Source: Ruminococcus sp. | Lineage (GTDB): Bacteria; Bacillota; Clostridia; Oscillospirales; Ruminococcaceae | DNA length: 64,000 nucleotides | NCBI GenBank assembly: GCA_015066805.1 | Contig: SVNP01000002.1 | Coordinates: forward strand, 62,001 to 126,000 | Direction: 5' to 3' | In this document: positions 2 to 30,550 of the stretch, in pieces | Numbering within the stretch: position 1 is the stretch's first letter | Layout of the letters: every line of letters begins with the position of its first letter | Translations under genes and position numbers: made by a program | The notes under the pieces: generated by a model | The model's input: the letters and a program-made list of their open reading frames with translations, nothing else | Told to the model about the DNA's origin: nothing | Databases searched by the model: none

Positions 2-2743
2 GGCGGTGAAACCACCACAACAACCACTACCATGACAGCACAGCAAACCCTGATGAGTGCTGCAAGTCTGGTGATCAACGGTAACCCCGGCAATAACAAC
101 TATGTGCAGGGTACCCAGTTCGTGTACTATCAGGCTGAGGGTAATAACATTCAGAGTAATGGAAACCTCAAGTCCCTCAACTTCAATACACATGAACAAT
201 CCCTTACAATCGACGGCAACACCTATAAGACCAAGGGCGTGAAGATGCAGGGTCAAACCCGAATCGGCTTCTCCATTGGTATAAAGGGTACGTTGTATGT
301 GTATGTCAACGGTCAGAATGGTGCAGGCAATATTAACATTACATCGTTGAGTACCGGCAGAGTTTATTCATCCGCTGTATCCGCAAGTGGCACTACCGGA
401 GTGGAAGTGCTGACCTTTGAACTGGAAGAGTTCGGCGAATACTCCATTGCAAAGGGTGATGGCGCACAGTTCTTCGTGGAAGCCATTTACTTTGGCCCGC
501 CACAAGTCCGGCTCCCCTTTGACAACGCAACCGATGCCGAGCTGATGATGGATCTTATCAACAACAACAAGCTTAGGTATGACAGCAATGATCCCGGCGA
601 GTACGTTGACCCCGAAGAATGGTACAAATCCGAGCTGGCAACCCTGACCGCATATAAGCTCATCGAATACCAGATTAAGGTGCCTTACGCAGGTATTGGT
701 GGCTGGACCAAGGAACAGGGCAACGGTACTCCTTTCCCACCTACTAACAACAACTGGGGTCAGGGCACCATCGACAATGAGATCACTTGCGCACAGATCC
801 GCTTCCTTTCCAAGGTGTATCAGGCAACAGGTAATACTGATTTCTATGATTCTCTCATCAAGGGCATTGAGTTTATTCTGGGTGATGCATACGTTGGTGA
901 GTATTACAAGGATAACAAGGGTGGCATCAACAGTGGCCAGCAAAAGGACACCGGCTTGCGTTACGCAAACGGCGGCTTTGCACAGCGTTTTGATGAAAGT
1001 GAAAGCGCATATCACCACCAGATCACTTTCAACGATAACGCAATGGTCAATGTGCTGCGTATCCTCAGTGAGATCGGTACAGCCAGCGGAGATTTCTCCT
1101 TCCTGACAGTAAAAAATCCGGAACTCGCAAAAGAGGCTCTGGATGCTGTTCACCAAGGTGTACAGTGCATCCTCGATTGTCAGATCATTGTCAATAACAA
1201 CGCATCTGATTATCAGTTTCAGTATACTTACAAGGATAAGTATGTGAACGGTGACGGCACTATTACCTCTCGGGTGAATATTCCCGTTGCGACTGACAAG
1301 TGGCACGGCAGATATACCGGTTGGTGCCAGCAGCATGATCCCCAAACGCTGGAACCCGGTTGGGCAAGAGCCTTTGAGCCGCCCTCTATCAGCGCCGGCG
1401 AAAGTGTAAACGTCATTACTTATCTGATTGAGTATTACAATTCTTCAATTTGCACACCTGAACTGAAAGCCGTACTTCCTCGCCGTATCAATGCGGCTGT
1501 GGATTGGATTTCTTCGGAAGATATTAAGCTTCACGTTGAATTGATCACCGGCACAGAAACGTATGTGAAAGACAAGGACGGCAATACAACAACCAATTCT
1601 AACAGTAGAATGTATCTGCAGGCAAGCGATACTTCCGTTCTGTGGGCTCGTTTCTATTCCGTTATGGATGGTGTAACTCCTCTTTGGTGTGACCGTGATT
1701 GGAGTGACAGTAAAACTGACAGCTTCCTTGATAACTTCCGTGATTCCTACGCTAACATGACAGGTGAACGTCGTAACGGCTACAATTACGCACAGACTTC
1801 CCCCAACAGCATCGCCTCCAACCCCGATGCCTACCGCATCCCCATTGATGGCACTACCGTAAAAGACCTGATCGTATATCCCTCCAAACCTATCAGCAAC
1901 GCCAGTTCTGTTGTGGCAAAAGGCTGGTACGATTACGGCGATGCATGGGCCATCATCGGCAGCATTAAAAACCAGGAGCTGGTTTACGGCGATGAAACTT
2001 ATGTATTCTCCAATCTGCCCAACGCATTGATCGGTTGTGAGTACATTCGTCCCGCAAATGCATCTTCCGCAAAGAATGCCGCCAATGCGCTGGGTACATT
2101 CCGGCTCAGCAAAGCAGCAAATCTTTACATTCCTGTTCCCAATGGTACCAATCTCCCCGCTGAGATGAGTGGCTGGACAAAGACCACTGTTACCATTACG
2201 GTGAACAACACTACCATGACTATCTACTCCAAAGCCCTGGCACCTAATGCCGATGCAGCCGAACCGTATTCACTGTATTCTCTTGCAAATGCAGGTGTGC
2301 TGAACTACGGTGTGTTCATTGCAGTTGGTTCTGAGGATGCCACACGGTATACCACCGATGCAAAGGGTGAGGTTTCCATTGCAGGCTTGAAGGCCGATAC
2401 CTACTATGCGATTATTGAGATCGCAGCACCGATCGGTTATTTGCCGCTGGATAAACCTGCACTGTTTTCGGTATTTACCGTTAAGGAAGGCGAGCAGATG
2501 GGTACCATCGATCAGACCAAAGACCCTGAGGTGATCGACAAAACGGGCTACGTTCAAATGGAGTGGGATAGCGACAAGGCTTTGGCTTTGGATGCTGACA
2601 TTCTCAATGATTCCACTCATGTAGAGCTGCCCAACACGGGTGCAAGCCCGATCAGTATTCTGCTGCGTGGTATTGCAGCACTTCTCCCGGTTCTCGCAGG
2701 CGTGCATTTCGTATGGAAACGCATGGTGTGTCCTGTGGAATAA
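2..2743 (+). CDS. PL10 pectate lyase with SpaA-like domain and LPNTG wall anchor (5' truncated)
   Basis: The frame is open from base 2 with no start; the first visible codons encode Gly-Gly-Glu and a threonine run, so a linker and further domains lie upstream. The ATG at 32 is internal, and residues below count from it. Residues about 10-160 form a beta-rich module like those attached to pectinases. Residues about 170-605 match pectate lyase family PL10: TIDNEITCAQIRFL, ITFNDNAMVNV, LEPGWARAFEPPSIS, then WARFY and ERRNGY. Residues about 630-745 are a beta module also found in the PL11 protein of this window. Residues about 755-830 resemble a SpaA/Cna-B fold, followed by LPNTG (866-870), a hydrophobic helix and a short basic tail. 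PL10 enzymes cleave polygalacturonate by beta-elimination; the C-terminus indicates sortase attachment. The pilin and sortase genes follow directly. Confidence 0.87.
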   Translation, partial: GGETTTTTTTMTAQQTLMSAASLVINGNPGNNNYVQGTQFVYYQAEGNNIQSNGNLKSLNFNTHEQSLTIDGNTYKTKGVKMQGQTRIGFSIGIKGTLYVYVNGQNGAGNINITSLSTGRVYSSAVSASGTTGVEVLTFELEEFGEYSIAKGDGAQFFVEAIYFGPPQVRLPFDNATDAELMMDLINNNKLRYDSNDPGEYVDPEEWYKSELATLTAYKLIEYQIKVPYAGIGGWTKEQGNGTPFPPTNNNWGQGTIDNEITCAQIRFLSKVYQATGNTDFYDSLIKGIEFILGDAYVGEYYKDNKGGINSGQQKDTGLRYANGGFAQRFDESESAYHHQITFNDNAMVNVLRILSEIGTASGDFSFLTVKNPELAKEALDAVHQGVQCILDCQIIVNNNASDYQFQYTYKDKYVNGDGTITSRVNIPVATDKWHGRYTGWCQQHDPQTLEPGWARAFEPPSISAGESVNVITYLIEYYNSSICTPELKAVLPRRINAAVDWISSEDIKLHVELITGTETYVKDKDGNTTTNSNSRMYLQASDTSVLWARFYSVMDGVTPLWCDRDWSDSKTDSFLDNFRDSYANMTGERRNGYNYAQTSPNSIASNPDAYRIPIDGTTVKDLIVYPSKPISNASSVVAKGWYDYGDAWAIIGSIKNQELVYGDETYVFSNLPNALIGCEYIRPANASSAKNAANALGTFRLSKAANLYIPVPNGTNLPAEMSGWTKTTVTITVNNTTMTIYSKALAPNADAAEPYSLYSLANAGVLNYGVFIAVGSEDATRYTTDAKGEVSIAGLKADTYYAIIEIAAPIGYLPLDKPALFSVFTVKEGEQMGTIDQTKDPEVIDKTGYVQMEWDSDKALALDADILNDSTHVELPNTGASPISILLRGIAALLPVLAGVHFVWKRMVCPVE

Positions 2744-2785
2744 AGTACGTGACCAAGCCATTTTTTAACAGAAAGGAAAACTACT

Positions 2786-4375
2786 ATGAAAAAGCAAATG
2801 AAACAAGTTGCTGCCGCAACACTGGCAGCCCTGTGCTTCGGCGCAGTCGCAATCCCGACCGTGGCTTCCGCTGCGACTATTACCGTGACCAACTCTTCGT
2901 CTAACATTACTATGGATGCAACCGACACTTATACCGCCTATAAGGTGTTTGGTGTCAACGATCTGGGCGATGGGAAGATTGAGATCATTGAGGACTCTAT
3001 TTCCGATAAAGTTGCTGATGTCTTTGAGACTTTGATGGCTGCGGATAGTACATTTTCATCCTCCAGCGCGACTATCGGCGGTAAGATTACGGACTATCTG
3101 AATCACATCGCTAGCAAAAATGATGCCGTCAAAGCTATGGGCCGTGCTCTTGCGAACGCTGGGCTGACTAATGGCCAGGCTATGACAGTTGCCGATGGTA
3201 AGGCAACACTGGATGTTGGTGATGAGTTGGGTTACTATTTGGTGACCGGTGCTTCCAAGGAAGGAACCGAAACAGTTCATTCGTCTGTGATGCTGAGGAC
3301 TGCAACCGAGGATATTTCAATCGTTTTGAAGGCTGACAAGCCCACTGTTGACAAGAACATTGTTGAGAACAATGCTCTGGTGAATACCAATACTGCTGCT
3401 TTCGGTGACGTTATTACTTATCAGATTGACAGTAAAGTTCCGGATCACACCTATTATTCCACCTACTACATGAAGTTTACCGATACCATTTGTGACGGTA
3501 TTGACTTTAACGTAAATGAGACCGATGCTGAACTGACTGCTACAGTTGTAATTGGCAGCACACCGCTGGCTCCTGAGGCTTACGAACTGACTATTGACGG
3601 TAACGTGATGACCATTGTTATTCCCAACGCAAAGAGCTATGCCATTGGTGCTGACATCAAGATCACATATGATGCAACCGTGGGTAGTGACGCTGTTATT
3701 TGGAATGATGCGAGTGCAGGCAATCCCAACAAGGTTAAACTGACCTACTCCAACAATCCCAACTGGGATACCGACGGTGACGGCATTCCGGATGACAAGG
3801 ATGCAAATCCTAATACCCCCAATCCGAGTGAGCCGAATCCTGAGAATCCTAATGATCCGTTTACCCCTGAAGATTTTACTCCTCCCACCGAGGATACCCC
3901 TGAAGTTGAGGTTATCACTTATGTAACCGAACTGAACATTTACAAGCAGGATGTTACAGACCCCAACAGCAAAACTGCTATGCCCGGCGTTGAGTTTAAG
4001 CTCGTAGGCGAGGGCAAGGAGTTGACTGGTACGACCGGTGCTGACGGTAAACTCGCATTCTCCGGTTTGGATGCTGGCACTTATACCATCACCGAAGTTT
4101 CTGCCCCTGACGGTTATATCCCTGCAAGCCCTGTAACGATTGTTATTGGCGAAGTTTACACTGATGCTCAACAGTCTGCATTTTCTAAGTTCACCTACGC
4201 TGAAGGTACTAACGCAGCAGGCGATACGAATCTCTTCACAATCGACAACAAGAGGGGCACCACCCTGCCCGAGACCGGTGGCATCGGCACCACCATCTTC
4301 ACCATCGTGGGTCTGACCCTGATGGCAACTGCAACCGGCGCCTTCATCATCAAGAGAAAGGTCACCGCACAGTAA
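2786..4375 (+). CDS. SpaA-type isopeptide-forming pilin, LPETG anchor
   Basis: 529 residues. An N-terminal signal peptide ends near ASAA (about residue 30). The body has the layout of a Gram-positive backbone pilin: an N-terminal domain, then KPTVDKNIV, which sits where the pilin-motif lysine is usually found, and a fimbrial isopeptide-like domain. A calcium-type segment DTDGDGIPDDKDANPN (about 329-345) and a Pro/Asn/Glu-rich stretch follow. Next comes a Cna-B domain with the E-box-like YTITEVSAPDGY, then LPETG (494-498), a membrane helix and KRK. Class C sortases polymerise such pilins through an intermolecular isopeptide bond. The start has the ribosome site AGAAAGGAAA. It lies 42 bp after the pectate lyase and is probably co-transcribed. 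The role as shaft subunit is inferred from order and domains. Confidence 0.9.
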   Translation: MKKQMKQVAAATLAALCFGAVAIPTVASAATITVTNSSSNITMDATDTYTAYKVFGVNDLGDGKIEIIEDSISDKVADVFETLMAADSTFSSSSATIGGKITDYLNHIASKNDAVKAMGRALANAGLTNGQAMTVADGKATLDVGDELGYYLVTGASKEGTETVHSSVMLRTATEDISIVLKADKPTVDKNIVENNALVNTNTAAFGDVITYQIDSKVPDHTYYSTYYMKFTDTICDGIDFNVNETDAELTATVVIGSTPLAPEAYELTIDGNVMTIVIPNAKSYAIGADIKITYDATVGSDAVIWNDASAGNPNKVKLTYSNNPNWDTDGDGIPDDKDANPNTPNPSEPNPENPNDPFTPEDFTPPTEDTPEVEVITYVTELNIYKQDVTDPNSKTAMPGVEFKLVGEGKELTGTTGADGKLAFSGLDAGTYTITEVSAPDGYIPASPVTIVIGEVYTDAQQSAFSKFTYAEGTNAAGDTNLFTIDNKRGTTLPETGGIGTTIFTIVGLTLMATATGAFIIKRKVTAQ

Positions 4376-4470
4376 TCTGCCCCAAACCATTGAAAACCGC
4401 ACAGTAAACCCATAATCCTTGCCCTCGGAGCTTCGGCTTCGGGGGCAAGATTTCATGAAAACCGCACAAG
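4363..4470 (+). repeat. Triplicated ACCGCACA(GTAA) tract at the pilin 3' end
   Basis: ACCGCACAGTAA ends the pilin gene (from about 4365), recurs near 4396 within TGAAAACCGCACAGTAA, and appears again as TGAAAACCGCACAAG near 4456-4470. The two TGAAAACCGCACA copies flank the hairpin at 4418-4449. This looks like a small local duplication of the gene's tail. Confidence 0.55.
4418..4449 (+). terminator. Intercistronic TTCG-loop hairpin between pilin and sortase genes
   Basis: CTTGCCCTCGGAGC and GCTTCGGGGGCAAG pair around a TTCG loop with one wobble and one mismatch. Only three T's follow, so it may act as a partial terminator or RNA-processing barrier that lowers sortase expression relative to the pilin. 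Confidence 0.5.
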
Positions 4471-4491
4471 ATCGGATGAATCGTAACGCTT

Positions 4492-5355
4492 ATGAAAAAC
4501 TTTCTGCTGAATCTGCTTTTTTCCTTGATCTTCCTGTTGGGTCTGGCAATTTTGCTGTACCCCACAGTCAGTGATCTTTGGAACAAGCGCAACCAATCCA
4601 TTGTTATTTCCACATTCCAGGCGGATCTGGACAATACCGCCGAGGAAGAACTGGCCGCCGCCTTTGATGCCGCCTATGATTGGAATCTTCGCCTGCCCAA
4701 AATGCTGTATACCATGACCGGTGCCATGATCGAAGCCGATGCAGAGTACAATTCTCTGTTGAATATGACAGGCAATGGTGTCATGGGCGTGGTGGAGATC
4801 AACGCCATTAATGTGCGCCTGCCGATTTACCATGGCACCACCGATGCGGTTTTGCAGGTAGGTGCAGGGCATATTGGCTCCACCTCGCTGCCTTCCGGCG
4901 GATTAACGACCCATTCGGTGATCTCGGCGCATACCGGTCTGCCTTCTGCAAGATTGTTTACCGACCTGAACCAACTGGAGATCGGTGATGTGTTCAAAAT
5001 CACCGTGCTGAACAAAACCTTGATTTATGAGGTAGATCAGATCGAAGTTGTTTTGCCGGATCAGGTTTCATCTTTGCGGATTATGGAGGATGAAGACCAT
5101 GTAACGCTGGTGACCTGTACTCCCTACGGTGTGAATTCTCACCGGTTGCTGGTGCGGGGCACCCGTCTGCCGGATGAGATCGTAGAGGATGTAGGCTATA
5201 CCATCAATAATGAGGCGGTTTTTGTGGATAAGACCGTGTTGATTCCTTTTGTAGTTGCACCGTTGACCATGTTATATCTGGTGCGTATTTTTGCGCAGTA
5301 TTTACGCAGACCCATTGGCCGCCGCAAGAAGTACAACGGTGGTTTACCTGCATAA
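4492..5355 (+). CDS. Class C (pilus) sortase
   Basis: 287 residues, usual for pilin-polymerising sortases. An N-terminal membrane helix (about 5-22) and a second hydrophobic segment near the C-terminus (about 245-265) are class C features. The catalytic histidine is H147 in SVISAHTGLP, the nucleophile is C209 in HVTLVTCTPYG, and the arginine lies in HRLLVRG just after. The stretch before VEINAINVRLPIYHGT is where a lid normally sits; I do not see a clear Asp-Pro-Phe/Trp lid motif. The enzyme should act outside the membrane, joining the LPETG pilin into a fibre and possibly adding the LPNTG pectate lyase. It is third in the operon after a 116-bp spacer with a hairpin. No convincing ribosome site precedes the ATG. 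Confidence 0.93.
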   Translation: MKNFLLNLLFSLIFLLGLAILLYPTVSDLWNKRNQSIVISTFQADLDNTAEEELAAAFDAAYDWNLRLPKMLYTMTGAMIEADAEYNSLLNMTGNGVMGVVEINAINVRLPIYHGTTDAVLQVGAGHIGSTSLPSGGLTTHSVISAHTGLPSARLFTDLNQLEIGDVFKITVLNKTLIYEVDQIEVVLPDQVSSLRIMEDEDHVTLVTCTPYGVNSHRLLVRGTRLPDEIVEDVGYTINNEAVFVDKTVLIPFVVAPLTMLYLVRIFAQYLRRPIGRRKKYNGGLPA

Positions 5356-5482: not shown

Positions 5483-6259
5483 TTACTCGGCTGCGGAGTC
5501 ACCCTCAGCAGGAGTATCGGTGGACTCGCCACCCTCAGCGCCGGTACCGGTAACGGTGAAATCAACCTCAATCTTGCTCCAGGAAGTAAAATCAGCAGTG
5601 TCAATGATCTGGGAGCTGTACTCGGTCATCTCGGTAGTACCAACAGGGCCATCAGCGGTGTGAGCATCATCGGGCAGGCTGTTAACCCAAGAGTTGTAGA
5701 TGTTAGCGCGCATTTCCTTGCCGTCATCAGAGGAGGTGTAGTTCTTGGCCTTCAGCTCAATTGCCTTGCCGTCTACACGGATCTCGGTGATCTCGATGCA
5801 CATTTCAGGGTACAGGGTAGTGCCGTCGTTCACCTTAACAGCAGCAAAAGCAACGCCGCCACACTTGTAAACGCCGTTGGGATCCTGACCGATGTCATAC
5901 TGTGCACCCTTGGTGGCAACATTTACGCTGACAGTGTACTGGCCGTCGCCGGTGATCTTTGCCACACCTGCATCATAGGTCAGCAGAGTTTCAGCGGTGC
6001 CATCGTAGCTGACGTAGAACTGACCGTCGTTGATGTAAAGGAATGCGTCGCCGGAGCCGGCTTCCACAGCTTCTTCAAACTCGATGGGCTCGGTGGTAGT
6101 GGTGGTCACGGTAGCAGCAGTGGTAGTAGTGGTGGTGGTGCTGGCTGCAGAAGACTCGGGTGCGGAATCCTTGGAGCTGTCATCGCCGCAAGCGGTGCAG
6201 ACAGAGAGAGCCATAACGGCTGCGAAGGTAGCTGCAAGTAGCTTCTTGGTCTTGGTCAT
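5483..6259 (-). CDS. Ruminococcal lipoprotein of unknown function
   Basis: 258 residues from the ATG at 6259, chosen because GAAAGAGGT lies just upstream and the protein then begins with a lipoprotein signal, MTKTKKLLAATFAAVMALSV, with the likely lipidated cysteine at C24 before GDDSSKD. A threonine-rich linker follows, as in cellulosomal proteins here. The mature region (about 65-235) is beta-rich, with GDAFLYINDGQFYVSYDG, KNYTSSDDGKEMRANIYNSW and ADFTSWSKIEVDFTVTG. From memory, similar lipoproteins recur in ruminococci without an assigned function. It should sit on the outer face of the membrane. The divergent LacI-family gene and a LacI-type palindrome in the gap suggest sugar-responsive control. 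A carbohydrate-binding role is only a guess. Confidence 0.8.
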   Translation of the reverse strand: MTKTKKLLAATFAAVMALSVCTACGDDSSKDSAPESSAASTTTTTTTAATVTTTTTEPIEFEEAVEAGSGDAFLYINDGQFYVSYDGTAETLLTYDAGVAKITGDGQYTVSVNVATKGAQYDIGQDPNGVYKCGGVAFAAVKVNDGTTLYPEMCIEITEIRVDGKAIELKAKNYTSSDDGKEMRANIYNSWVNSLPDDAHTADGPVGTTEMTEYSSQIIDTADFTSWSKIEVDFTVTGTGAEGGESTDTPAEGDSAAE

Positions 6260-6306
6260 GATGGTTACCTCTTTCTCATATTTATATATGTGCTGCAGTG
6301 ATACCA

Positions 6307-6314
6307 TAACGTTA
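6307..6314. promoter_or_regulatory. Possible LacI-family operator
   Basis: TAACGTTA is a perfect palindrome with the central CG typical of LacI/GalR-family operators. It lies about 50 bp upstream of the lipoprotein start, opposite the LacI-family gene. Flanking symmetry is poor, so the call is tentative. Confidence 0.33.
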
Positions 6315-6588
6315 CAATGATACAGTACAGCACTATACGATATATGGTACACTATTTTTGAAAAATTCGCAAGTGGTAAACCGCACAAATATCAAGAGGA
6401 TTACAAGACGAAAAACTGTGAATTTATACGAATTACAGCCATATTTCTACAAATTTTACCCTGCGGTGACTGTGAAAGATCACGGAAAGCATAAAAACAA
6501 GACGATTCTCATACAAATGGTAGAGAAAATGGTGGATTTTGAGCTGGATAGGCTGATAATTATACTCAAAGTTTTTTTCGATTCGGTA

Positions 6589-7886: not shown

Positions 7887-8070
7887 AACTTTAGGTTCTT
7901 AGTGTGGCTATTGGTGTGCCCTGACGAAATCGCAATTTTGTTCGCTCTTGCTTTCAGGATGCGATGAGCTGCGGTTCGCCTCGGCTGCGCGCGGAAATAC
8001 AAGGGGATGTTCCGTTTCGCTCAGCGGAATGTGCCCGACAAATCAAACATTTGCAGTAGGAGGTGGTTTT

Positions 8071-9261
8071 ATGCCAAGTTATGCTTACACAGCGAAAGAC
8101 GCCGTCGGTAATATCCGTAAAGGCGTGATGGCTGCTGAGGATGAGCAGGAATTTCTGGCAAAAATCAGAGAAAAGGGAATGTATGTCACCGAATACAAGG
8201 AGCGGCGTACCGAGGTCAAGACGGTAAAGAAGTTCAAGACCCCCGAGCTTGCGTTCGCTACCCGTCAGATGGCGGCGATGCTGACATCCGGTCTGACCCT
8301 TGTTAAGGCACTGGACATTCTCTGCAGAGAGCAGGAGAGCGAAGCTGCCCGAAATGTATGGAGAGATGTGTACGAGAGCGTGCAGAAGGGTGAGTCCTTC
8401 TCCGATGCGCTGGAAGTACACGGCAGTGTGTTCCCCACGCTGATGACCTCAATGGTCGCCGCCGGTGAGTCCAGCGGTTCGCTGGATGTGATCATGCAGC
8501 GACTCAGTGACTACTACGCAAACCAGAACAAGATCTCCAACACCATCAAGAGCGCGATGGTTTACCCCATTATCCTGGGCGTTCTGACAATCGCTGTTGT
8601 TATCGGCGTTTTCGTGTTCATTATGCCTACCTTCGAGGATCTGTACGATGATCCTGCGGATATGCCCGGCCTGACCAGAGGCATGATGAACATCGGTAAG
8701 TTCCTTGTGGCGCGTTGGTACCTGGTGGTCGGCATCATAGTCGTGATCGCCTTCGTTACCATTTACGCATTGAAGCTCCCTGACGTGCGCGTCAAGTGGG
8801 ATCGGTTCATCATAAAGGGCCCCGGCTTCGGCAAGCTGGTCGTTAAGATCTATACTGCCCGTTTCGCACAGACAATGGCTTCCCTGTACTCCAGTGGTCT
8901 GCCCATGGTTGAGTGTCTGAAGCGTTCCGCCGATACCCTTTCCAACTCCTACATCTCCATGAAGTTCCGTGACATCGTGGACGAGGTGAAGAGTGGTGAG
9001 ACCCTCAGTGCCTCCATCCAGAGAGCCGATATCTTCGATTCCATGTTCTGCTCCATCATCTACGTCGGTGAGGAAGCCGGTGCATTGGATGACATCCTGG
9101 CAAAGACTGCCGAGTACTACGATGAAGAAGCGGACTCCGCTGTTAAGCGTCTGTGCTCCCTGTTGGAGCCTGTGATGCTGATTATCATGGGTATCGTCAT
9201 CGGTCTCGTCTGTGCAGCGTTCTTCCCCGCACTGTACGATTCCTTCGACAACATCGAGTAA
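8071..9261 (+). CDS. pilC: Type IV pilus inner-membrane platform protein PilC (T2SS-F family)
   Basis: 396 residues from the ATG at 8071, which follows AGGAGGTGG; upstream in-frame codons have no ribosome site and no family similarity. It opens with MPSYAYTAKDAVGNIRKG, the usual PilC/GspF N-terminus. Two T2SS-F repeats follow (about 65-190 and 265-385), with ATRQMAAMLTSGLTLVKAL and FAQTMASLYSSGLPMVECL marking their starts. Three hydrophobic helices lie near 168-190, 215-237 and 367-390. PilC is the membrane platform on which the PilB and PilT motors act. It leads the operon and is followed by a strong stem-loop. Confidence 0.93.
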   Translation: MPSYAYTAKDAVGNIRKGVMAAEDEQEFLAKIREKGMYVTEYKERRTEVKTVKKFKTPELAFATRQMAAMLTSGLTLVKALDILCREQESEAARNVWRDVYESVQKGESFSDALEVHGSVFPTLMTSMVAAGESSGSLDVIMQRLSDYYANQNKISNTIKSAMVYPIILGVLTIAVVIGVFVFIMPTFEDLYDDPADMPGLTRGMMNIGKFLVARWYLVVGIIVVIAFVTIYALKLPDVRVKWDRFIIKGPGFGKLVVKIYTARFAQTMASLYSSGLPMVECLKRSADTLSNSYISMKFRDIVDEVKSGETLSASIQRADIFDSMFCSIIYVGEEAGALDDILAKTAEYYDEEADSAVKRLCSLLEPVMLIIMGIVIGLVCAAFFPALYDSFDNIE

Positions 9262-9305
9262 ACCGAACCCCAAGGCTGCAATCAAACCATATGACAACAG
9301 GCCGA

Positions 9306-9331
9306 CCGTCTGCGGTAAGTGCCGCAGACGG
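9306..9331 (+). other. Intercistronic stem-loop after pilC
   Basis: A perfect 10-bp stem, CCGTCTGCGG/CCGCAGACGG, with a 6-nt loop and no T-tract, between pilC and the pilM-type gene. It is more likely an RNA-stability or processing element than a full terminator. Confidence 0.6.
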
Positions 9332-9375
9332 GCCTGCTGATCGTTTCAATTCAATCAGAGAGGTGGATTTCGTAA

Positions 9376-11040
9376 ATGCTTTCGTTTGATATTACCGACC
9401 GAAATATACGTATCATTAAGGGTACAGAGAGTGGCGGCAAGATCCGCATTCACTCCGCAGCAACCCTGAACCTGGAAGAAGAGGTTATCGTTAACGGCCA
9501 CGTCCGCGACGTGCCCCGTCTGGCAACCCTGATCAACCAGGTGCTGCGTACCAACAAGATGGCCGACAAGGAAGCCATCGTCAGCATCTCCTCCAACATG
9601 ACCATCTTCAAGGAGCTGCACATTCAGAAGGCCGCCAAGGAGCAGGACTTCATGAAAATGGTGCGTGCCGAGATGGCCGCTGCACTGGGTATTGATGATT
9701 CTTACTCCGTGTCTTACATCATCGTGGGCGATTCCGAGCAGCAGGAGGGTGCCGTAAAGATCCTGGCAACCGCCTGCCCCTACGAAGTGGTAGATTGCTA
9801 CAAGCGCGTGTTCAACATGCTGCAGCTCTCCCTCCGCTCCGTTATGATCGGCTGCAACTGCATCACCAAGGTTCTGCTGGCTGACACCAAGGTCAAGTCC
9901 AAGATGCCTCTGCTGGCAGTGCAGATCGACAACAACTTTATCTCCCTGAACCTGTACGAGAACGGACAGCTTTCCTTCTCCCGTTTCGCTTCTATCTCCG
10001 CAGAAGACTACGACGACTCCGAGGATTACGTATTTGAGGCAGTTAACGAGAACATCTTCCGTATGCTGCAGTTCCAGAAGAGTAAGTCTGACGGCGATTC
10101 TATCGAGAACGTGATCTTCTACGGTGATACCCGTGAGTATGTCCGTCTGACCAATGAGCTGGAGAAGATGGGCATCCGTACCAGCATCATCAACGTGCCT
10201 CCGCAGATCCACGGCTACGAGAACCTGGAGTTCTCCTCCTACGCAAACGCCATCGGCGCAATGTTCAAGCGTAATAAGGAGACCGAGCGCATCAACCTGC
10301 TGGAGACCGATACCGTCAACAACAACAAGATCAAGTCCAATTCTTCCTACTACGTTCTGCTGGTAGGCAGCCTGGTGGCTTCCATTGCAATCTGCGGTGT
10401 GGCTTACATGGTGCTGGCTCTCCAGAACAAGAGCGTGGAGAAGGACATTAAGGAGATCGCTGACAAGAAGGGCAGCGCACTGGCACAGGATCTGGAAGCA
10501 CAGCTCAACGACCTGACTGCCCTTTCCAAGAGCGTGAACGCCTATAAGGATGGCGTAAATGATGCCTACCAGGCATATCTCAGCCGTCCCTATGTGCTCT
10601 CCGAGGATTACACCCAACTGGAAGAAACCATCAAGAAGGTGGTTATGGATACCCATAAGGAGCTGGCCGATAAGGACGAGAACCTGAAGGGTGACGATCC
10701 CGATTACAGCGAGTACTATGTCATCGACAGCATGAACTACGAAGATGGTAAGATGAAGATCGAGCTGAAGGCTAAGGCAGAGGATCTGCCCCTGCAGACC
10801 ATTCCCGCAAACCTGATTCAGGCTCTGCGTGCAAGAGATGACGTTTATTACGTTGCATATGAAGGCTACACTCTTGTGAAAGAGGTCACTACCTCCGATA
10901 AGACCACCGTGGACGAAGAGGGCAACACCATCTCCGCCGGCGAAGAAGTGGAAAAGGAATACATCACTATGTCTCTGACTGTTGAGATGAAGGGTGACGG
11001 CGTAGCATATACTGAACAAGAGGAGGTACCGTTCAAATGA
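9376..11040 (+). CDS. PilM-PilN-like fusion, type IV pilus alignment protein
   Basis: 554 residues. Residues 1 to about 300 look like the actin-like PilM fold, with MLSFDITDRNIRIIKG at the N-terminus and AIVSISSNMTIFKELHI. A single membrane helix follows at about 325-348 (YYVLLVGSLVASIAICGVAY). After it comes a helical, Lys/Glu/Asp-rich coiled-coil region (about 350-420) and a small alpha/beta domain, the layout of PilN. In most bacteria PilM (cytoplasmic) and PilN (membrane) are separate partners; here they appear as one chain. The frame is continuous and the next gene overlaps by four bases, so this is not an obvious sequencing artefact. AGAGGTGG lies 11 bases before the ATG. The fusion call is inferred from length and topology. 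Confidence 0.82.
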   Translation: MLSFDITDRNIRIIKGTESGGKIRIHSAATLNLEEEVIVNGHVRDVPRLATLINQVLRTNKMADKEAIVSISSNMTIFKELHIQKAAKEQDFMKMVRAEMAAALGIDDSYSVSYIIVGDSEQQEGAVKILATACPYEVVDCYKRVFNMLQLSLRSVMIGCNCITKVLLADTKVKSKMPLLAVQIDNNFISLNLYENGQLSFSRFASISAEDYDDSEDYVFEAVNENIFRMLQFQKSKSDGDSIENVIFYGDTREYVRLTNELEKMGIRTSIINVPPQIHGYENLEFSSYANAIGAMFKRNKETERINLLETDTVNNNKIKSNSSYYVLLVGSLVASIAICGVAYMVLALQNKSVEKDIKEIADKKGSALAQDLEAQLNDLTALSKSVNAYKDGVNDAYQAYLSRPYVLSEDYTQLEETIKKVVMDTHKELADKDENLKGDDPDYSEYYVIDSMNYEDGKMKIELKAKAEDLPLQTIPANLIQALRARDDVYYVAYEGYTLVKEVTTSDKTTVDEEGNTISAGEEVEKEYITMSLTVEMKGDGVAYTEQEEVPFK

Positions 11041-11921
11041 AACTCGGATATCGTGATAGAATCATTCTTCTCGTCGTAATGGTGATCGTCGTGTTCGCCA
11101 TCGGCATCTTCGCATTCATCAAGCCCCAGTGGGAAAAGCTGGATAAGAACAAGACGCAGTTGGAAACCGATGAGGCAGCCTGGACTCTTAAGATGACAGA
11201 CTTTGACCGCATCAACACCATCCGCGACACCATTGACGAGCGTTACAACGAAGCTCTGACCCTCTGCGAGGGCTTCACCGATGAGATGGATTCCACCGAG
11301 CTGGACCAGTTCCTGCAGGAGAAGTTCATGAACATCGAAAAGCACATCAAGAACGATGTAGAGCTGGTTGGCGGTTCCACTATCTCTGATCTGGGCACCG
11401 CAACTCTGGCATACTACTACTACACCCCCAGCATCGTGACCTACCCCCTGTACGAGGCAGCCGATTTTGATGGTTCTCTGGAGAAGGAAGCTGCTCTCAA
11501 GTGCAAGGAGTCCATCATCCTGTCTTCCCGTTCCAGCCAGATCGTCGGCAACGGCAACGCAAAGCTGGCATTCAAGATCAACAAGCAGGATACCATGGAT
11601 CTCATCGACGCTGTCCGCAAGTACGCTACCGACAACAAGGACGCTATGCTGCTGAAGGCTGTTCAGATCACTGATTTTGACTTCAACGGCGAGCCCCTGG
11701 AGCGTGACGACGACGGCAACATCGTGGGCGAGCCCCCCAAGCCTGAAGACGGCGAGGCTGAGCTGGAGCCCGATGAGTACGGCTACACTGAAGTAACGTT
11801 TGACTTCCAGGTCTACTACATTCAGGAGCCCACCAAGCCCGACACCGGCAAAGCTTATGATAAGAGCATCTGGGACGGTGAAGGCTGGAGAACCTACGTT
11901 TCTGAAAAAACGGCCCAATGA
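11037..11921 (+). CDS. PilO-like type IV pilus assembly protein
   Basis: 294 residues, starting within the stop of the preceding gene (ATGA overlap), which implies translational coupling. A short cytoplasmic N-terminus is followed by one membrane helix (about 9-28). Then come IKPQWEKLDKNKTQLETDE, a coiled coil, and an alpha/beta external domain. This is the topology of PilO, which pairs with PilN to link the PilM ring to the envelope. Sequence similarity to named PilO proteins is weak; the call rests on topology and on its place after a pilM-pilN unit. A Pro/Glu-rich insert lies near residues 230-260. Confidence 0.78.
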   Translation: MKLGYRDRIILLVVMVIVVFAIGIFAFIKPQWEKLDKNKTQLETDEAAWTLKMTDFDRINTIRDTIDERYNEALTLCEGFTDEMDSTELDQFLQEKFMNIEKHIKNDVELVGGSTISDLGTATLAYYYYTPSIVTYPLYEAADFDGSLEKEAALKCKESIILSSRSSQIVGNGNAKLAFKINKQDTMDLIDAVRKYATDNKDAMLLKAVQITDFDFNGEPLERDDDGNIVGEPPKPEDGEAELEPDEYGYTEVTFDFQVYYIQEPTKPDTGKAYDKSIWDGEGWRTYVSEKTAQ

Positions 11922-11927
11922 CGCGGA

Positions 11928-11953
11928 AAGCCTTCTTGTATACAGGAAGGCTT
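11928..11953 (+). other. Intercistronic hairpin after pilO
   Basis: AAGCCTTCTTGTA and TACAGGAAGGCTT form a near-perfect hairpin with one wobble pair. No T-run follows. It separates the alignment genes from the large anchored protein. Confidence 0.55.
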
Positions 11954-11979
11954 CCCACACTTGAAAGGTGGTTTCACTT

Positions 11980-14919
11980 ATGGAACAAAATATGAAGAAA
12001 GGGAGAGTCAAGGGTACAGTCCTCTTTACCGTTGTCGCCGTGATGATGGTACTTGTGGTCTTCCTTATGTCCACGCTGATTCTGACTACATCTGCCCAGC
12101 GCCGAACCTACTATACCTACTTTGAGACGCAGGCCCAGTATGCCGCCACGGCAGCTCTGGAAACTGTGCAGAACTCTGTGTATTCCAATGAGGGTTTCTT
12201 CACCTGGATGACCAACGAAGCAAAGAACATCGGCGATGTGGCTACCATGGATGTGAACTTCGAGAATACAACCATTCCGATTTCGCAGACCAAAGAAGTG
12301 AACGGTAAAACCGTTCGGTTTGTTACTTGTGAGATCCGCAGACTGGATGACGATTACTACTGGGATGAGAAAAACGTCCGTATCGTAAGCCGTCGTACAT
12401 GGCAGATCTCCGCTACCGCAATGGTAGGCACCGGATCTCAGGCTGCTGAGTGCGTGCAGGCCTTCGTTGTGTACGAGCCTGTCCGTGAGCGTCTGGGTCA
12501 GCCCGACAATGCCGGCGTTAAGTGGACCGGTATCGCAGAGGGCTCCGGCGACGGCGAAGGTGCCGGCGTGTTTGCCTCTACCTTCAACAGCGGCAACGAT
12601 AACGTTTCCGTTTTCGGCCCCGTGTTCTCCGTGGGCGATGCTCCTCTGGGTCGTACCAAGTACCCCACCAACCTTTGGGAAGCAACCTCTATTGCTAACG
12701 AAGGTATCTATGTGGGCCGTGTGGTCTTTACCGACTCCATGATGCTGAATACAACTAAGTACGTGACCGTTCAGAACGCCTTTGAGGGCCTGGAGGTCTA
12801 CGGCAACTTTGTTGTCAACAACTATATGCATATCCAGTCCAAGCAAACACCTGCTCCCACACAGTATAACGAGCTTGGATACGTTTATGTGGATGGTATG
12901 CTGGCTGTGACCGGTGGTGCATTCTCCATCGGCGGCGTTTCCAAGCAGGAGAACATAACTGTCGGCAACGAGCAGCATGTGAACCTGTATGCAGGTGCGA
13001 TCACTGCTTCCAAGCCTTTGACCGTGAATGGCGATATTTTCCTGCATGAGCCTACCCTGAAGTCTTCCTTCTCCGATACCGGTCTGACCTATCTGGCCGC
13101 TTTTGTGGAGCAGAACGTGCAGAAAGCAAACTACAAGCACAAGGGCTACGCAGGCGGCGACCTCATCTGCGCCAACAGCGAGTTTGTCATTGATGGCAAC
13201 CGTGCTCCCAGTGTGGGCGGCGATTTCATCATGACTAACCCAGACTCCAAGCTGACTGTGCAGGGCAATGGCGATACCAAGATCGGCGGTGCTCTGATTT
13301 GTGCCGGTGAGCTGATCATGAACGCTTCCAAGTCCATTACCGCAGCAGGCGGTGTGTACGTTGATCCTACCAAGGTCACCGTATTCCAGAATCTTTCCAT
13401 CAACGGTGTGCAGTTTACCAACCAGGATACCGTTGAACAGATCACCACCAAGCTGGTTCAGGCTTGCAAGAACGCTTCGGGCGCACAGGCAAGCTACGAT
13501 CTGGACGGCGATGGTCAGGTGACAAACACCGATCTTCACAAGAATACCTACAACAACGCTGTTGTAGAGAGCCTCGGTGCAATGTCCTTCATCTACAAGG
13601 ATGGTACCACCGAGAACGAGCAGTACACCAGCCTGGTCAGCGAGATGCTCAACTGCGAGCAGACCTATCATGATGCCGATGGCAACGAGAAGAAGGTAAA
13701 GGTTGGTCTTTATCCCTTCTGCAGCCGTCTGGATGAGATCTTTATGACCTACATCCGCTGGGATCTGGCTTCCGAGAATGAGGCAACCGCAAGAGGCTAC
13801 CTCAACACCGATGAGCTGATCAAGGAGAGTAAGGCTGCTGGTCACACTTGGGATGTCAAGGAAAAGACCGACGGCACCACCAAGATCTATGTGCCCTACA
13901 CCACCACTCTCAACGAGAAGGAGCATGGTTTTATCGGCGAGATCGAAACCGGTGATAACTCCAAGCTGCATTATGCCGGCGCTTATGATACCGACACCGA
14001 GCTGCCCGGCGGCCAGCCTGCACTCGTTTTCTCTCAGCCCGGTACTTTGACGACTCAGACCTATTACTACCATGATAAGGATGGCAAGCCCGCAAATGGC
14101 ACCGTGAACAATGCAGTGTACATTGATACAAGCTGCGTGCTGGACTTTACCCAGAACAGCAATGACTGGCTGAATCTGGCCAACAACAACGGTACCATTT
14201 ATGTGGATCCTTCCGTAAACGGCTACTCCTCCGAGAATCCTCTGGTTATCTGGATCAAGGGTTCCTTTAGCAACGGGCGCCTGAACATTCTGGTCAACAA
14301 TACCTATGATTCCGTTCAGGGCAGCTACTATGCAGATCTGAACACATTCACCGACCGTGATCAGGTTGTTATCTACTGGGATGACAACTTCTATGCACAG
14401 AAGGGTAACTTCTACACCACCGGTTCCTACCACGCAGTTACCGTTGATAAGGAACTGGATTATGTGGCTAACCCCTACTATCCCGGTACTGCTTCCTGGA
14501 CAGCTCTGCCCGCAGGCCCCGAGAAGTATAAGTTTGAGTACATCCCCAACACCACCATCTATATGGATGCTACCAAGACCGGATCCTATGAGCTGCAGAA
14601 TAACTCCTTTATCTCTGCGTTCGTGATCTCTCCCTATGCTTCTCTCAGCATGCCCGCAGCAGGCGATCTGCAGGTGAAGACCACCTACCGTGAGTATCAC
14701 GCATCTGATGAGCTGTATTCGCAGGATTACGCCAACAACATCTGTCTCATTGCAATCGGTGGCTTTATTCTGGATGACTTCTGGACCAACAACGCATCCT
14801 ACATGGTATATGCAACCGATGGCAACAGACCCAAGCCCTATGGCGATGAAGCAAAGCCCGGTGAGGAGCTGGATGCTGAAGGCGACTTCCTGATCAGCGA
14901 CTTCTTCACCCCCGCTTGA
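11980..14919 (+). CDS. Large membrane-anchored beta-repeat protein of the type IV pilus operon (PilX-like N-terminus)
   Basis: 979 residues from the ATG at 11980, nine bases after TTGAAAGGTGG; an upstream GTG overlaps that site. MKKGRVKGTVLF leads into one hydrophobic helix (about 14-37) and then a helical stretch with TSAQRRTYYTYFETQAQYAA, like PilX/minor pilins that lack a prepilin peptide. Residues about 260-470 contain repeated short turns rich in G-D-x-x (YVDGMLAVTGGAF, TVNGDIFL, SVGGDFIMTNP, KIGGALICAGELIM), suggesting a beta-solenoid like bactofilins or adhesins. One EF-hand-like loop, DLDGDGQVTNTDL, lies near 507. The C-terminal third is Tyr/Asn/Thr-rich. It lies between pilO and two minor pilins, so it may be the pilus-associated adhesin. 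I do not recognise a named family. Confidence 0.8.
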   Translation: MEQNMKKGRVKGTVLFTVVAVMMVLVVFLMSTLILTTSAQRRTYYTYFETQAQYAATAALETVQNSVYSNEGFFTWMTNEAKNIGDVATMDVNFENTTIPISQTKEVNGKTVRFVTCEIRRLDDDYYWDEKNVRIVSRRTWQISATAMVGTGSQAAECVQAFVVYEPVRERLGQPDNAGVKWTGIAEGSGDGEGAGVFASTFNSGNDNVSVFGPVFSVGDAPLGRTKYPTNLWEATSIANEGIYVGRVVFTDSMMLNTTKYVTVQNAFEGLEVYGNFVVNNYMHIQSKQTPAPTQYNELGYVYVDGMLAVTGGAFSIGGVSKQENITVGNEQHVNLYAGAITASKPLTVNGDIFLHEPTLKSSFSDTGLTYLAAFVEQNVQKANYKHKGYAGGDLICANSEFVIDGNRAPSVGGDFIMTNPDSKLTVQGNGDTKIGGALICAGELIMNASKSITAAGGVYVDPTKVTVFQNLSINGVQFTNQDTVEQITTKLVQACKNASGAQASYDLDGDGQVTNTDLHKNTYNNAVVESLGAMSFIYKDGTTENEQYTSLVSEMLNCEQTYHDADGNEKKVKVGLYPFCSRLDEIFMTYIRWDLASENEATARGYLNTDELIKESKAAGHTWDVKEKTDGTTKIYVPYTTTLNEKEHGFIGEIETGDNSKLHYAGAYDTDTELPGGQPALVFSQPGTLTTQTYYYHDKDGKPANGTVNNAVYIDTSCVLDFTQNSNDWLNLANNNGTIYVDPSVNGYSSENPLVIWIKGSFSNGRLNILVNNTYDSVQGSYYADLNTFTDRDQVVIYWDDNFYAQKGNFYTTGSYHAVTVDKELDYVANPYYPGTASWTALPAGPEKYKFEYIPNTTIYMDATKTGSYELQNNSFISAFVISPYASLSMPAAGDLQVKTTYREYHASDELYSQDYANNICLIAIGGFILDDFWTNNASYMVYATDGNRPKPYGDEAKPGEELDAEGDFLISDFFTPA

Positions 14920-14935
14920 GAAATGAGGTGATCCG

Positions 14936-15715
14936 ATGAAACGCTTAAAAGGTATGACGCTCCTTGAGATCGTCATCTCAATTGGTATCTTTGCACTTCT
15001 TTCTCTGCTGATCGTACAGTGCATTACCTCTATTAACGTGATCATCCGACGCACCACTGATATGAACGAGCGTATCTATCAGGAAAAGGTGTATGTGAAT
15101 ACCCACCAAACGGCATTCATGGATGATGTACAGTCCTACGAAGCAAATGCGACCTCGCTTTCCGTTCAGTACGGCACCTTTGAAGCCTACCCTGTGGTGC
15201 AAGCCGTGGAGCGTGTAACCAAGAATGACGGCAGCCAGGAGGCCATTGACCGTGACACTCGTCTGGACAGTAATCTCCACTTCCGTTTCCTGGAGTTCGG
15301 TGGCGCTCGTGCTCAAAGTGCTAGCGAAGAAAATGGCACCGGTTTTATTACCCTGGAAGCAAGGGGCGGCAGCGTGCCTGAGATCGTCAGTGTAACGGTT
15401 AAGGGCGGCGGCACCCAGCAGGTGTATATGCCCGGTACAACCAACCCCATTCAGCAGTATGTGCTCACCGCAGCACAGTTGGATGGCGGTGACGGCAAAT
15501 TCTCGGATGGTGAGCAGATGTTCCGTGTGGATATGCCTGAAACGACCTCCGTTGTCATTATTGACTGGGTTTTGCTCCGTAACGGCAAGGAAGAGACTGC
15601 ACAGTCCATTCATACCTTCCCACAGAACCGTCTGACTGCCGGCGGCACCTACGAGACCGTGGGTAAGGCGACCGCTTATTTCTACGATGGCCGTGCATTC
15701 GGTATCGCGAAATGA
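14936..15715 (+). CDS. Minor pseudopilin with type IV prepilin signal
   Basis: 259 residues. MKRLKG is a short basic leader. Cleavage by prepilin peptidase is expected after G6, giving MTLLEIVISIGIFALLSLL with the conserved Glu at +5. The rest is a beta-rich globular domain without clear homology. A ribosome site, GAGGTG, precedes the ATG. The next gene begins after it with a small gap; an alternative in-frame start would overlap the stop. Such proteins prime pilus assembly or sit at the tip, and this one belongs with the adjoining minor pilin. Confidence 0.87.
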   Translation: MKRLKGMTLLEIVISIGIFALLSLLIVQCITSINVIIRRTTDMNERIYQEKVYVNTHQTAFMDDVQSYEANATSLSVQYGTFEAYPVVQAVERVTKNDGSQEAIDRDTRLDSNLHFRFLEFGGARAQSASEENGTGFITLEARGGSVPEIVSVTVKGGGTQQVYMPGTTNPIQQYVLTAAQLDGGDGKFSDGEQMFRVDMPETTSVVIIDWVLLRNGKEETAQSIHTFPQNRLTAGGTYETVGKATAYFYDGRAFGIAK

Positions 15716-15747
15716 AAAGTGTTAAATCTGAAGAAAGGAGTGACGGT

Positions 15748-16893
15748 ATGAAGAAACGTTTATCGGCTTTTACACTGATCGAAACCATTATCGTTATGGC
15801 GATCTTTTCCATGATCATGTTCAGTGTAATGCAGCTGATGGATCCTGTTTCAAAGTATTTTGTCAGAGGCTCCAACTTTGAAAACTCTACTGCTTGCCTG
15901 GATAATATGCGTCGCTGCATCGAGGGTAACCTGATGTATGCCGACCGTATCCATACATACGCAGGCTACGAGCCCTATCACTACACTGCCGGTGAAATGG
16001 ATGTGGATGGTGACGGCACTGCTGATATTACCGGTGTCATGACCTCCACCTACGAACCCAGTGCTGTGCTGAAGGCACAGGTCAGTGATTTTCACAGTAA
16101 GTTCTTTGACAAGCGTGTCTGCTTTGATGCTGCCGGTACCATTTATGTGCTCTGCTTCGATAACACCCAGATCATCAGTGATGATGGCCTGAAGACTGTG
16201 GCAAGCCTGACGGATTACAACGACCTGCAGCTCAATCAGGGCAAGATCCTGCTCTATGGCTTCCACTACGGTATCACACCCCAGGGTGATGGTACTGTGG
16301 CCTACTGGCTGGATGTGGATAACCCCACCATCACCCAGTGGACTGTGAACCAGAAGCTGTACGGCAACTTCGATTACACCTTCTATCTCGGTGTAAACGG
16401 CGAAAAAGATGACGGTGCAGGCAACACCGTTGCCATCACCGACCCCTCTGAACTGCTGTCTTCTTATACTATGGAATTTAAAGACTGTAAGGTACATATC
16501 AAGGTCGGCGAGGTCAAACGCAGCAAGGATGGCGGTCTGGAGCGCAACAGTCAGTCTGCAAGCTACCAGAACACCTATGCTTCTTTTATCTTAAGGAATG
16601 CATTGCAGAGAGAATTGACAAAAGAAGACGCTGTCGAAACAAATTACACCAACATTGCGCAGAACGATATCAAGATCAATTATGATCCCACCAAGAACTA
16701 CAAGGATATTACCGCATATACCCGTACTGCTCTGCCTCAGGTGGAGAACCTGATGACGATGGGCGGCCCCGGTGCAGCAGCATATGATGCGATCTCCACA
16801 GGCAACCCCGTCAGCAGCTTCTACTTCATCTTCACCACGCCGGATTCCTGCACAAACGTGGATCCCGCACAGTGGGGTATTACCGTATCCTGA
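15748..16893 (+). CDS. Minor pilin with type IV prepilin signal
   Basis: 381 residues from the ATG at 15748, after GAAAGGAG. The upstream ATG at 15712 would add twelve residues ahead of the prepilin leader. The leader MKKRLSA precedes FTLIETIIVMAIFSMIM. The residue before the cleavage site is Ala rather than the usual Gly, which prepilin peptidases often tolerate poorly. Glu is at +5. The long C-terminal domain (about 45-381) includes a DVDGDGTADITG calcium-type loop near residue 88. It is last of the forward genes before the converging prepilin peptidase. A tip or adhesive role is inferred from its size. Confidence 0.85.
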   Translation: MKKRLSAFTLIETIIVMAIFSMIMFSVMQLMDPVSKYFVRGSNFENSTACLDNMRRCIEGNLMYADRIHTYAGYEPYHYTAGEMDVDGDGTADITGVMTSTYEPSAVLKAQVSDFHSKFFDKRVCFDAAGTIYVLCFDNTQIISDDGLKTVASLTDYNDLQLNQGKILLYGFHYGITPQGDGTVAYWLDVDNPTITQWTVNQKLYGNFDYTFYLGVNGEKDDGAGNTVAITDPSELLSSYTMEFKDCKVHIKVGEVKRSKDGGLERNSQSASYQNTYASFILRNALQRELTKEDAVETNYTNIAQNDIKINYDPTKNYKDITAYTRTALPQVENLMTMGGPGAAAYDAISTGNPVSSFYFIFTTPDSCTNVDPAQWGITVS

Positions 16894-16920
16894 AAGGCAA
16901 ACACAAGCACATGAATCAAC

Positions 16921-16955
16921 AAGAAAGGCAGCCGGTGTTGCCGGCTGCCTTCTTT
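16921..16955. terminator. Bidirectional terminator between minor pilin and prepilin peptidase
   Basis: GGCAGCCGG and CCGGCTGCC form the core stem, flanked by AAGAAA and TTCTTT, so both converging transcripts end in a U-rich tail. Confidence 0.78.
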
Positions 16956-16961
16956 CATGTA

Positions 16962-17864: not shown

Positions 17865-17894
17865 AACGGTACCTCCTTATATGGTTGTACTGTT

Positions 17895-17923
17895 ATTTTA
17901 TCACAGATTACATGATTTTTCAA
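17895..17923 (-). promoter_or_regulatory. Promoter of the prepilin peptidase gene
   Basis: Read on the minus strand: TTGAAA, 17-bp spacer and TAAAAT with extended -10 TG. It sits back to back with the start of pilB. Confidence 0.7.
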
Positions 17924-17951
17924 GATTAAAATCAAATTTTGGAGGTTAGGT

Positions 17952-30476: not shown

Positions 30477-30550
30477 TGCGCTCATTCCTTTCTTTTTTAT
30501 GCTGTTTTTTTCAATTCCCTGTCCATATATGTTGTGTCTGTATTAAGGCT

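Follow-up and report, generated by a model that had tools for sequence, protein, structure and literature searches.

The stretch of DNA analysed here (the window) comprises 64,000 nucleotides of a Ruminococcus sp. genome (GCA_015066805.1, contig SVNP01000002.1; G000:C20:62001-126000), a draft assembly of 2.07 Mb in 39 contigs, 79.6% complete, in which this contig measures 134 kb. Its left edge cuts through an operon with the gene order signal peptidase I, giant tip protein, backbone (shaft) pilin and class C sortase. The type I signal peptidase gene (TIGR02227) lies directly 5' of the tip gene, the backbone gene follows the tip gene after 42 bases and the sortase gene follows the backbone gene after 116 bases. 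The operon seems to end after the sortase, because the next likely gene (5483-6388) lies on the opposite strand. The features of a sortase pilus are thus present: a class C sortase and an LPXTG shaft pilin with isopeptide-type domains stand beside a tip gene, which precedes the shaft gene and ends in an LPNTG sorting signal with a hydrophobic tail. The shaft pilin scored 71.5 against the SpaH/EbpB subfamily model NF033902, under its cut-off of 95, and its candidate cross-linking lysine, which is invariant in 6/6 aligned backbones, lies in a motif, LK[AT]DxP[TS], that differs from the classical YPK. A pilin-motif lysine was found in none of five tips, with two patterns searched (YPK-like and LKADxPT). 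The coordinates of all features are collected in Table 1.

The tip gene is a single frame, uninterrupted over 3,337 codons (L006:2730-12743), which starts 7,271 bases before the first base of the window. Its product begins with a basic stretch followed by a hydrophobic segment ending in LLPALAEN, as judged by hydropathy, and this N-terminus was read as a putative signal sequence. A fibro-slime/PA14-like region was located upstream of the window at about residues 1263-1312. Further along, two pieces matched the SpaA profile (PF17802) at positions 3-49 and 33-86 of 91, so one SpaA domain is interrupted by about 960 residues; when the halves were scanned separately, both exceeded the Pfam cut-off of 23.1 bits. 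Between the halves lies a cassette of two CBM77 modules, a PL10 pectate lyase and a further domain, termed X, to which Pfam gave no match. This architecture of operon, domains and nesting is firm. A simple C-terminal fusion of the lyase was considered as well, and the split SpaA domain rules it out. Neither a dockerin nor a VWA family was among the Pfam matches to the tip at expectation values (E) up to 1. An EF-hand-like loop (L006:9318-9368, residues about 2197-2213; PF13405 weak, E 0.025), which might bind calcium near the junction, was noted immediately upstream of the insert, within the first half of SpaA.

Table 1. Features of the pilus operon and the nested lyase. Positions are those of the window unless stated otherwise.
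Feature	Position	Strand	Evidence
Giant tip gene, start	G000:C20:54730 (window position -7270)	+	GTG taken as start; ATG 12 bases downstream
Giant tip gene, 3' part (residues 2425-3337 of 3,337 codons)	2..2743	+	open frame running off the left edge of the window
SpaA, first half	residues about 2158-2212, before window	+	PF17802 profile 3-49 of 91; 24.1 bits alone
CBM77, first copy	residues 2298-2410, before window	+	PF18283
CBM77, second copy (residues 2485-2582)	182..475	+	PF18283
PL10 pectate lyase catalytic domain (residues about 2673-3028)	746..1813	+	PF09492/TIGR02474; matches 1r76 and 1gxm
Codon of D2682, TIDN Asp of 1gxm (Ala in 1gxo chain)	773..775	+	chain alignment
Codon of D2769, calcium-binding Asp451 of Pel10A	1034..1036	+	chain alignment
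Codon of R2880, proposed catalytic base Arg524 of Pel10A	1367..1369	+	chain alignment
Codon of E2891, Glu535 of Pel10A	1400..1402	+	chain alignment
X domain (residues about 3040-3180)	1847..2269	+	blastp to two PL10 enzymes, E 4e-14 and 4e-13
SpaA/Cna-B, second half (profile match residues 3204-3261)	2288..2629	+	profile 33-86 of 91; 31.3 bits alone
Codon of E3230, predicted isopeptide catalytic Glu	2417..2419	+	invariant in 9/9 domains
Codon of N3293, predicted isopeptide Asn, partner of pre-insert K2162	2606..2608	+	invariant in 9/9 domains
LPNTG of cell wall sorting signal (residue 3300)	2627..2641	+	sequence
Backbone (shaft) pilin, 529 amino acids, LPETG	2786..4375	+	PF16569, TIGR04226, PF17802 and PF00746 above cut-off
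Candidate cross-linking Lys K182 (LKADKPT) of shaft pilin	3329..3331	+	invariant in 6/6 aligned backbones
Class C sortase	4492..5355	+	NF033745, 254.3 bits (cut-off 160); 55% identical to sortase of the SIG540 orthologous operon

The original prediction, made from the window alone, had described a PL10 lyase with SpaA-type sequence and LPNTG, followed by an LPETG pilin and a class C sortase, and all three genes are there. Its SpaA-like domain is present as well, but the window holds the second half only, and some 1,000 residues separate it from the first half, which precedes it; its carbohydrate-binding-like module is real and is CBM77, in two copies, one of them before the window. The lyase gene had been placed first in the operon: it is the first structural gene but not the first gene, since the signal peptidase gene directly precedes it. 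The enzyme had been assigned the position of the tip pilin, and the lyase does lie inside the tip protein, but as an insert in one domain and not as the whole tip pilin. The upstream sequence, whose recovery had been proposed as a check, encodes a signal-like sequence and a giant protein of tip type, and it belongs to a pilus operon rather than to an unrelated one.

Relatives were sought in a GTDB species set with the fibro-slime region of the tip, and the best 80 of 191 confirmed relatives were used. One of these, Ruminococcus sp. SIG539 (L048), has a tip frame of 2,904 residues whose N-terminal part is about 50% identical to that of the source tip, and which carries PL10 (214 bits) together with a CBM77 match barely above cut-off (25.5 vs 25). 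Here too the lyase cassette lies within SpaA, with profile positions 3-39 before the insert (27.3 bits) and 34-82 after it (40.8 bits). The module order is CBM77-CBM77-PL10-X in the source tip and PL10-CBM77 in that of SIG539, in which no X domain was found. A second signal-peptidase-like gene was noted by eye between the SIG539 tip and backbone genes (L048:15853-16470).

The SpaA halves of both lyase tips were joined in a script and aligned with seven whole SpaA domains, giving nine rows in which the insert junction falls at the identical alignment column in both lyase tips. The isopeptide Lys, Glu and Asn were invariant in all nine rows, as K2162, E3230 and N3293 in the source tip and K2157, E2804 and N2861 in that of SIG539. 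The isopeptide bond of RrgB is made by the same residue types, and so is that of RrgA domain D4 (PMC5333627). In a predicted structure of the SIG539 region both SpaA halves packed into one Cna-B fold, and the modelled split domain aligned structurally with RrgA 735-859 and with SpaC.

As to the enzyme, the whole tip frame scored 173.3 bits (cut-off 22, E 9e-51) against PF09492 Pec_lyase and 193.3 bits against the pectate lyase model TIGR02474, barely over its cut-off of 189.8, and both pilin lyases (source and SIG539) matched solved PL10 structures. In Pel10A of Cellvibrio japonicus, Asp451 is a calcium site, Arg524 the proposed base and Glu535 a structural residue (PMC10992409). Pel10A numbering was mapped through the chain alignments with an offset of 317 counted by hand, and the residue letters agree; the SIG539 equivalents are D2390, R2464 and E2475. 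With the TIDN Asp added, both pilin lyases retain four active-site positions. Pel10A and PelA of Azospirillum irakense share the PL10 catalytic domain and its active-site residues with the tip, and to our knowledge neither is a pilin. The X domain also follows PL10 in two separate enzymes, one from the source genome (L007) and one from another genus (L041), so the insert resembles the main part of a typical secreted PL10 enzyme. Pfam matched a dockerin in L041 and found none in L007 at E up to 0.001. The solved chain CBM77-RFPL also gave a match; CBM77 owes its first description to Ruminococcus flavefaciens, as a module that binds pectin.

Ruminococcus sp. SIG540 (L043; the same contig as G276, L042), also among the best 80 of the 191 relatives, has an orthologous operon in which the signal peptidase is 57%, the sortase 55% and the backbone 31% identical to its source counterpart. 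The SIG540 tip has 1,876 amino acids, with SpaA whole and no lyase, and this operon supports the assignment of the giant tip gene to the pilus. Upstream of this lyase-free operon lies a gene (L042:10524-13442, minus strand) for a pectate lyase (PF00544) that bears a dockerin and ricin-type repeats; in SIG540, pectin cutting is thus encoded beside an orthologous pilus through a separate cellulosomal-type enzyme. At three further loci (L044, L045 and L050) a tip, an LPXTG pilin and a class C sortase adjoin without a lyase. The tips of R. flavefaciens SAb67 (L050:9131-13456) and of a sheep omasum Ruminococcus (L045:4455-8747) carry CBM_4_9 modules, and carbohydrate-binding tips may therefore be more frequent than enzymatic ones.

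Taken together, these features are read, with somewhat better than even confidence, as a sortase pilus whose tip protein displays a pectate lyase nested in its C-terminal SpaA domain. The operon, domains, nesting, conserved residues and recurrence come from sequence or model; from them we infer secretion, polymerisation, tip assembly, the isopeptide bond, activity and the bypass of force. The giant protein (about 3,330 amino acids) would be secreted, and the class C sortase would take its LPNTG and join it to the shaft pilin lysine (candidate K182), which would place the tip protein at the fibre end. The lyase cassette would hang from a closed surface loop of the C-terminal SpaA/Cna-B domain, whose halves would pack together, with a Lys2162-Asn3293 isopeptide bond stapling the chain across the insert. 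Pull on the fibre would then run through the K2162-N3293 staple and bypass the enzyme. Pectin would be bound by the CBM77 modules and perhaps by the N-terminal region, and homogalacturonan cut where the cell meets the plant wall. The large N-terminal region that remains beside the insert is probably an adhesin. In Actinomyces oris the sorting signal of the tip pilin directs foreign proteins to the tip (PMC11389406), so a large insert need not hinder pilus assembly. The display of a lyase on a fibre, as the original prediction had it, is partly supported, and both fibre display and lyase activity are judged likely.

Several findings count against this reading, and rarity is among them. The lyase-bearing tip occurs in 1/30 species genomes of the genus, which rules out pilin lyases as a common genus trait. 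A catalytic carbohydrate-active family was present in one (SIG539) of 57 fibro-slime frames from other species, these being one frame from each of 57 of the best 80 loci; the other 23 were left out, mostly as short or cut-off frames or as records of Planctomycetes, cyanobacteria and Fibrobacter. Many of the 57 frames have no LPXTG end by pattern and may not be pilins, and for 49 of them the pooled scans give family names and not the member. At E up to 1e-20, a search of 297 genomes returned the source and two ordinary PL10 frames. The association expected in other genomes recurs, in the same loop of the SIG539 tip, but is rare. The lyases themselves are divergent (source vs SIG539 32.4% identical), that of the source has long insertions, and that of SIG539 lacks a C-terminal ERR motif present in the other aligned rows shown. 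The SIG539 model had an overall pLDDT (predicted local distance difference test) of 52 and was built from a shallow alignment (10 rows) that included whole SpaA domains spanning the gap, which helped the halves meet; its structural comparison gives the first and last aligned residues only, and the model of the window lyase itself was poor (pLDDT 40.2). The pilus-tip lyase is a prediction from genes and models.

Separate PL10 enzymes are common in the genus. PL10 was found in 26/30 genomes and CBM77 in 25/30, in frames of 251-1,014 amino acids, the source tip excepted; the ends of most inspected PL10 frames look dockerin-like by eye, Pfam having been applied to L007 and L041 only. Both lyase-tip genomes also carry a separate PL10 frame, of 745 amino acids in the source and 634 in SIG539. 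Outside the source, the fibro-slime region gave nothing stronger than weak matches in the 30 genus genomes (19 genomes, best E 2e-11). With E limited to 1e-40, it turned up in the source alone among 394 genomes of the order, and in the source and G276 among 396 genomes of the family; more distant tips score beneath these strict limits. Among the 297 genomes PL10 occurred in 12, and a giant frame (3,341) in the source genome only; the three whole-genome samples (297, 394 and 396) overlap. In 20 more distant fibro-slime frames of congeners no catalytic family was matched at E up to 1e-5; binding modules are commoner in them, six carrying CBM_4_9. Among the open-licence PMC papers listed, none on an enzyme at a sortase-pilus tip turned up, although such work may exist.

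Within the favoured reading, the chances are evenly divided between two independent insertions of a lyase into the same loop and a single old one. The differing module orders point to convergence, as do the identities: each pilin PL10 is nearer to separate enzymes (best identity among those compared 39% for the source lyase and 42% for that of SIG539) than to the other pilin lyase, whereas the tips that carry them are about 50% identical. The tree, however, does not reject one clade (approximately unbiased test, p-AU 0.127), with both rows on long branches, and the shared site and the shared enzyme and CBM families also fit one origin with reshuffling. The guanine plus cytosine (GC) content of the two tips differs by 8.5 points, and each is near that of its surroundings (source 49.7 vs 52.5%, SIG539 41.2 vs 40.3%). 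More tentatively, and with less than even confidence, the SpaA loop may be a cargo socket of fibro-slime tips into which secreted or cellulosomal enzymes moved more than once, with varied module orders, while the staple carries force past the enzyme; a bacterium could then grip pectin and cleave it with a single fibre tip.

That the nested PL10 is dead or weak, kept for pectin binding in a tip that serves as a pectin adhesin, is unlikely. The divergence and insertions described above, the long branches in the PL10 tree, the two adjacent CBM77 modules and the presence of CBM_4_9 without an enzyme in other fibro-slime proteins would all suit such a tip, but the equivalents of Asp451, Arg524 and Glu535 and the TIDN Asp are retained in both pilin lyases.

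Slightly less probable still is the anchoring of the giant protein singly to peptidoglycan by another sortase, with the pilin and the class C sortase building fibres without it. The source genome holds four sortases besides the class C one, none passing the class C cut-off, which leaves room for such anchoring, an outcome that the original prediction had named as refuting it, and also speaks against display on a fibre; the LPXTG motif is partly conserved in an amylase that stays associated with the cells of a gut Butyrivibrio (PMC2914790). Against this stands gene order, as the tip gene precedes the backbone and class C sortase genes in SIG540, SIG539, L044, L045 and L050, with or without a lyase. 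A fusion or assembly error, for which the draft state of the genome might speak, is given a negligible probability, and chance or artefact is considered ruled out, by the unbroken 3,337-codon frame on a 134-kb contig and by the recurrence of this nesting in a second species, SIG539, on a contig assembled separately and with a tip of different GC content (41.2 vs 49.7%).

The closest known parallel is RrgA, the tip of pilus 1 of Streptococcus pneumoniae, in which D3 is inserted in the Ig-like domain D2 and the halves are locked by a Lys191-Asn695 bond (PMC5333627). Both are sortase-pilus tips with a passenger domain between the halves of an isopeptide-type Ig-like domain, the bond in the source tip being predicted. 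They differ in the passenger, a polysaccharide lyase with CBM77 modules in the source tip and an adhesin (vWA) in RrgA, and in the host, which in the source tip is a SpaA domain next to LPXTG with a fibro-slime giant as its N-terminal part. RrgA is among the listed vWA tip pilins (PMC5536039); the source tip would work like RrgA yet is not classed with them, because no VWA family was found. The giant fibro-slime tips are nearer relatives, that of SIG540 standing in an orthologous operon and that of SAb67 being a related tip with a class C sortase, but their SpaA is uninterrupted and catalytic families are absent from them; CBM_4_9 is present in the tips of SAb67 and of the relative from sheep omasum. 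The ruminococcal cellulosome presumably draws on the same enzyme and CBM families as the tip lyase. The tip lyase differs in that it ends in LPNTG with no dockerin match, and it would be attached to a fibre covalently, as part of one chain. The cellulosome, too, involves a sortase, which anchors the scaffoldin ScaE to the wall (PMC4081043).

Elsewhere in the window a GspF/PilC-like protein (7948-9261; best NCBIfam scores below cut-offs) and a T2SSE/MshEN ATPase (17952-19610) are encoded. Genes resembling those of type IV pili or type II secretion (7948-19610) thus follow the sortase pilus, and two unrelated fibre systems may adjoin here. The minus-strand gene at 29199-30485 encodes a protein of 428 amino acids that combines a dockerin and a Big_2 domain. 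Another pectin enzyme, a rhamnogalacturonan lyase of family 11 with Ricin-type lectin domains, lies at 36574-39630; no dockerin was matched in it at E up to 1e-5.

Tip pilins are mainly known as adhesins. If the proposed reading is true, the pilus of this Ruminococcus would take an active part in opening plant cell walls, both gluing and cutting, and organisms of one kind would have, besides the cellulosome, a covalent alternative made of a single chain. Nesting closed by an isopeptide bond suggests why such display could work, as the host domain would stay intact and bear the load, and it would offer a natural design for enzyme display on Gram-positive fibres. It would also put to a direct test the idea that nesting of the RrgA type is a general way to load pili.

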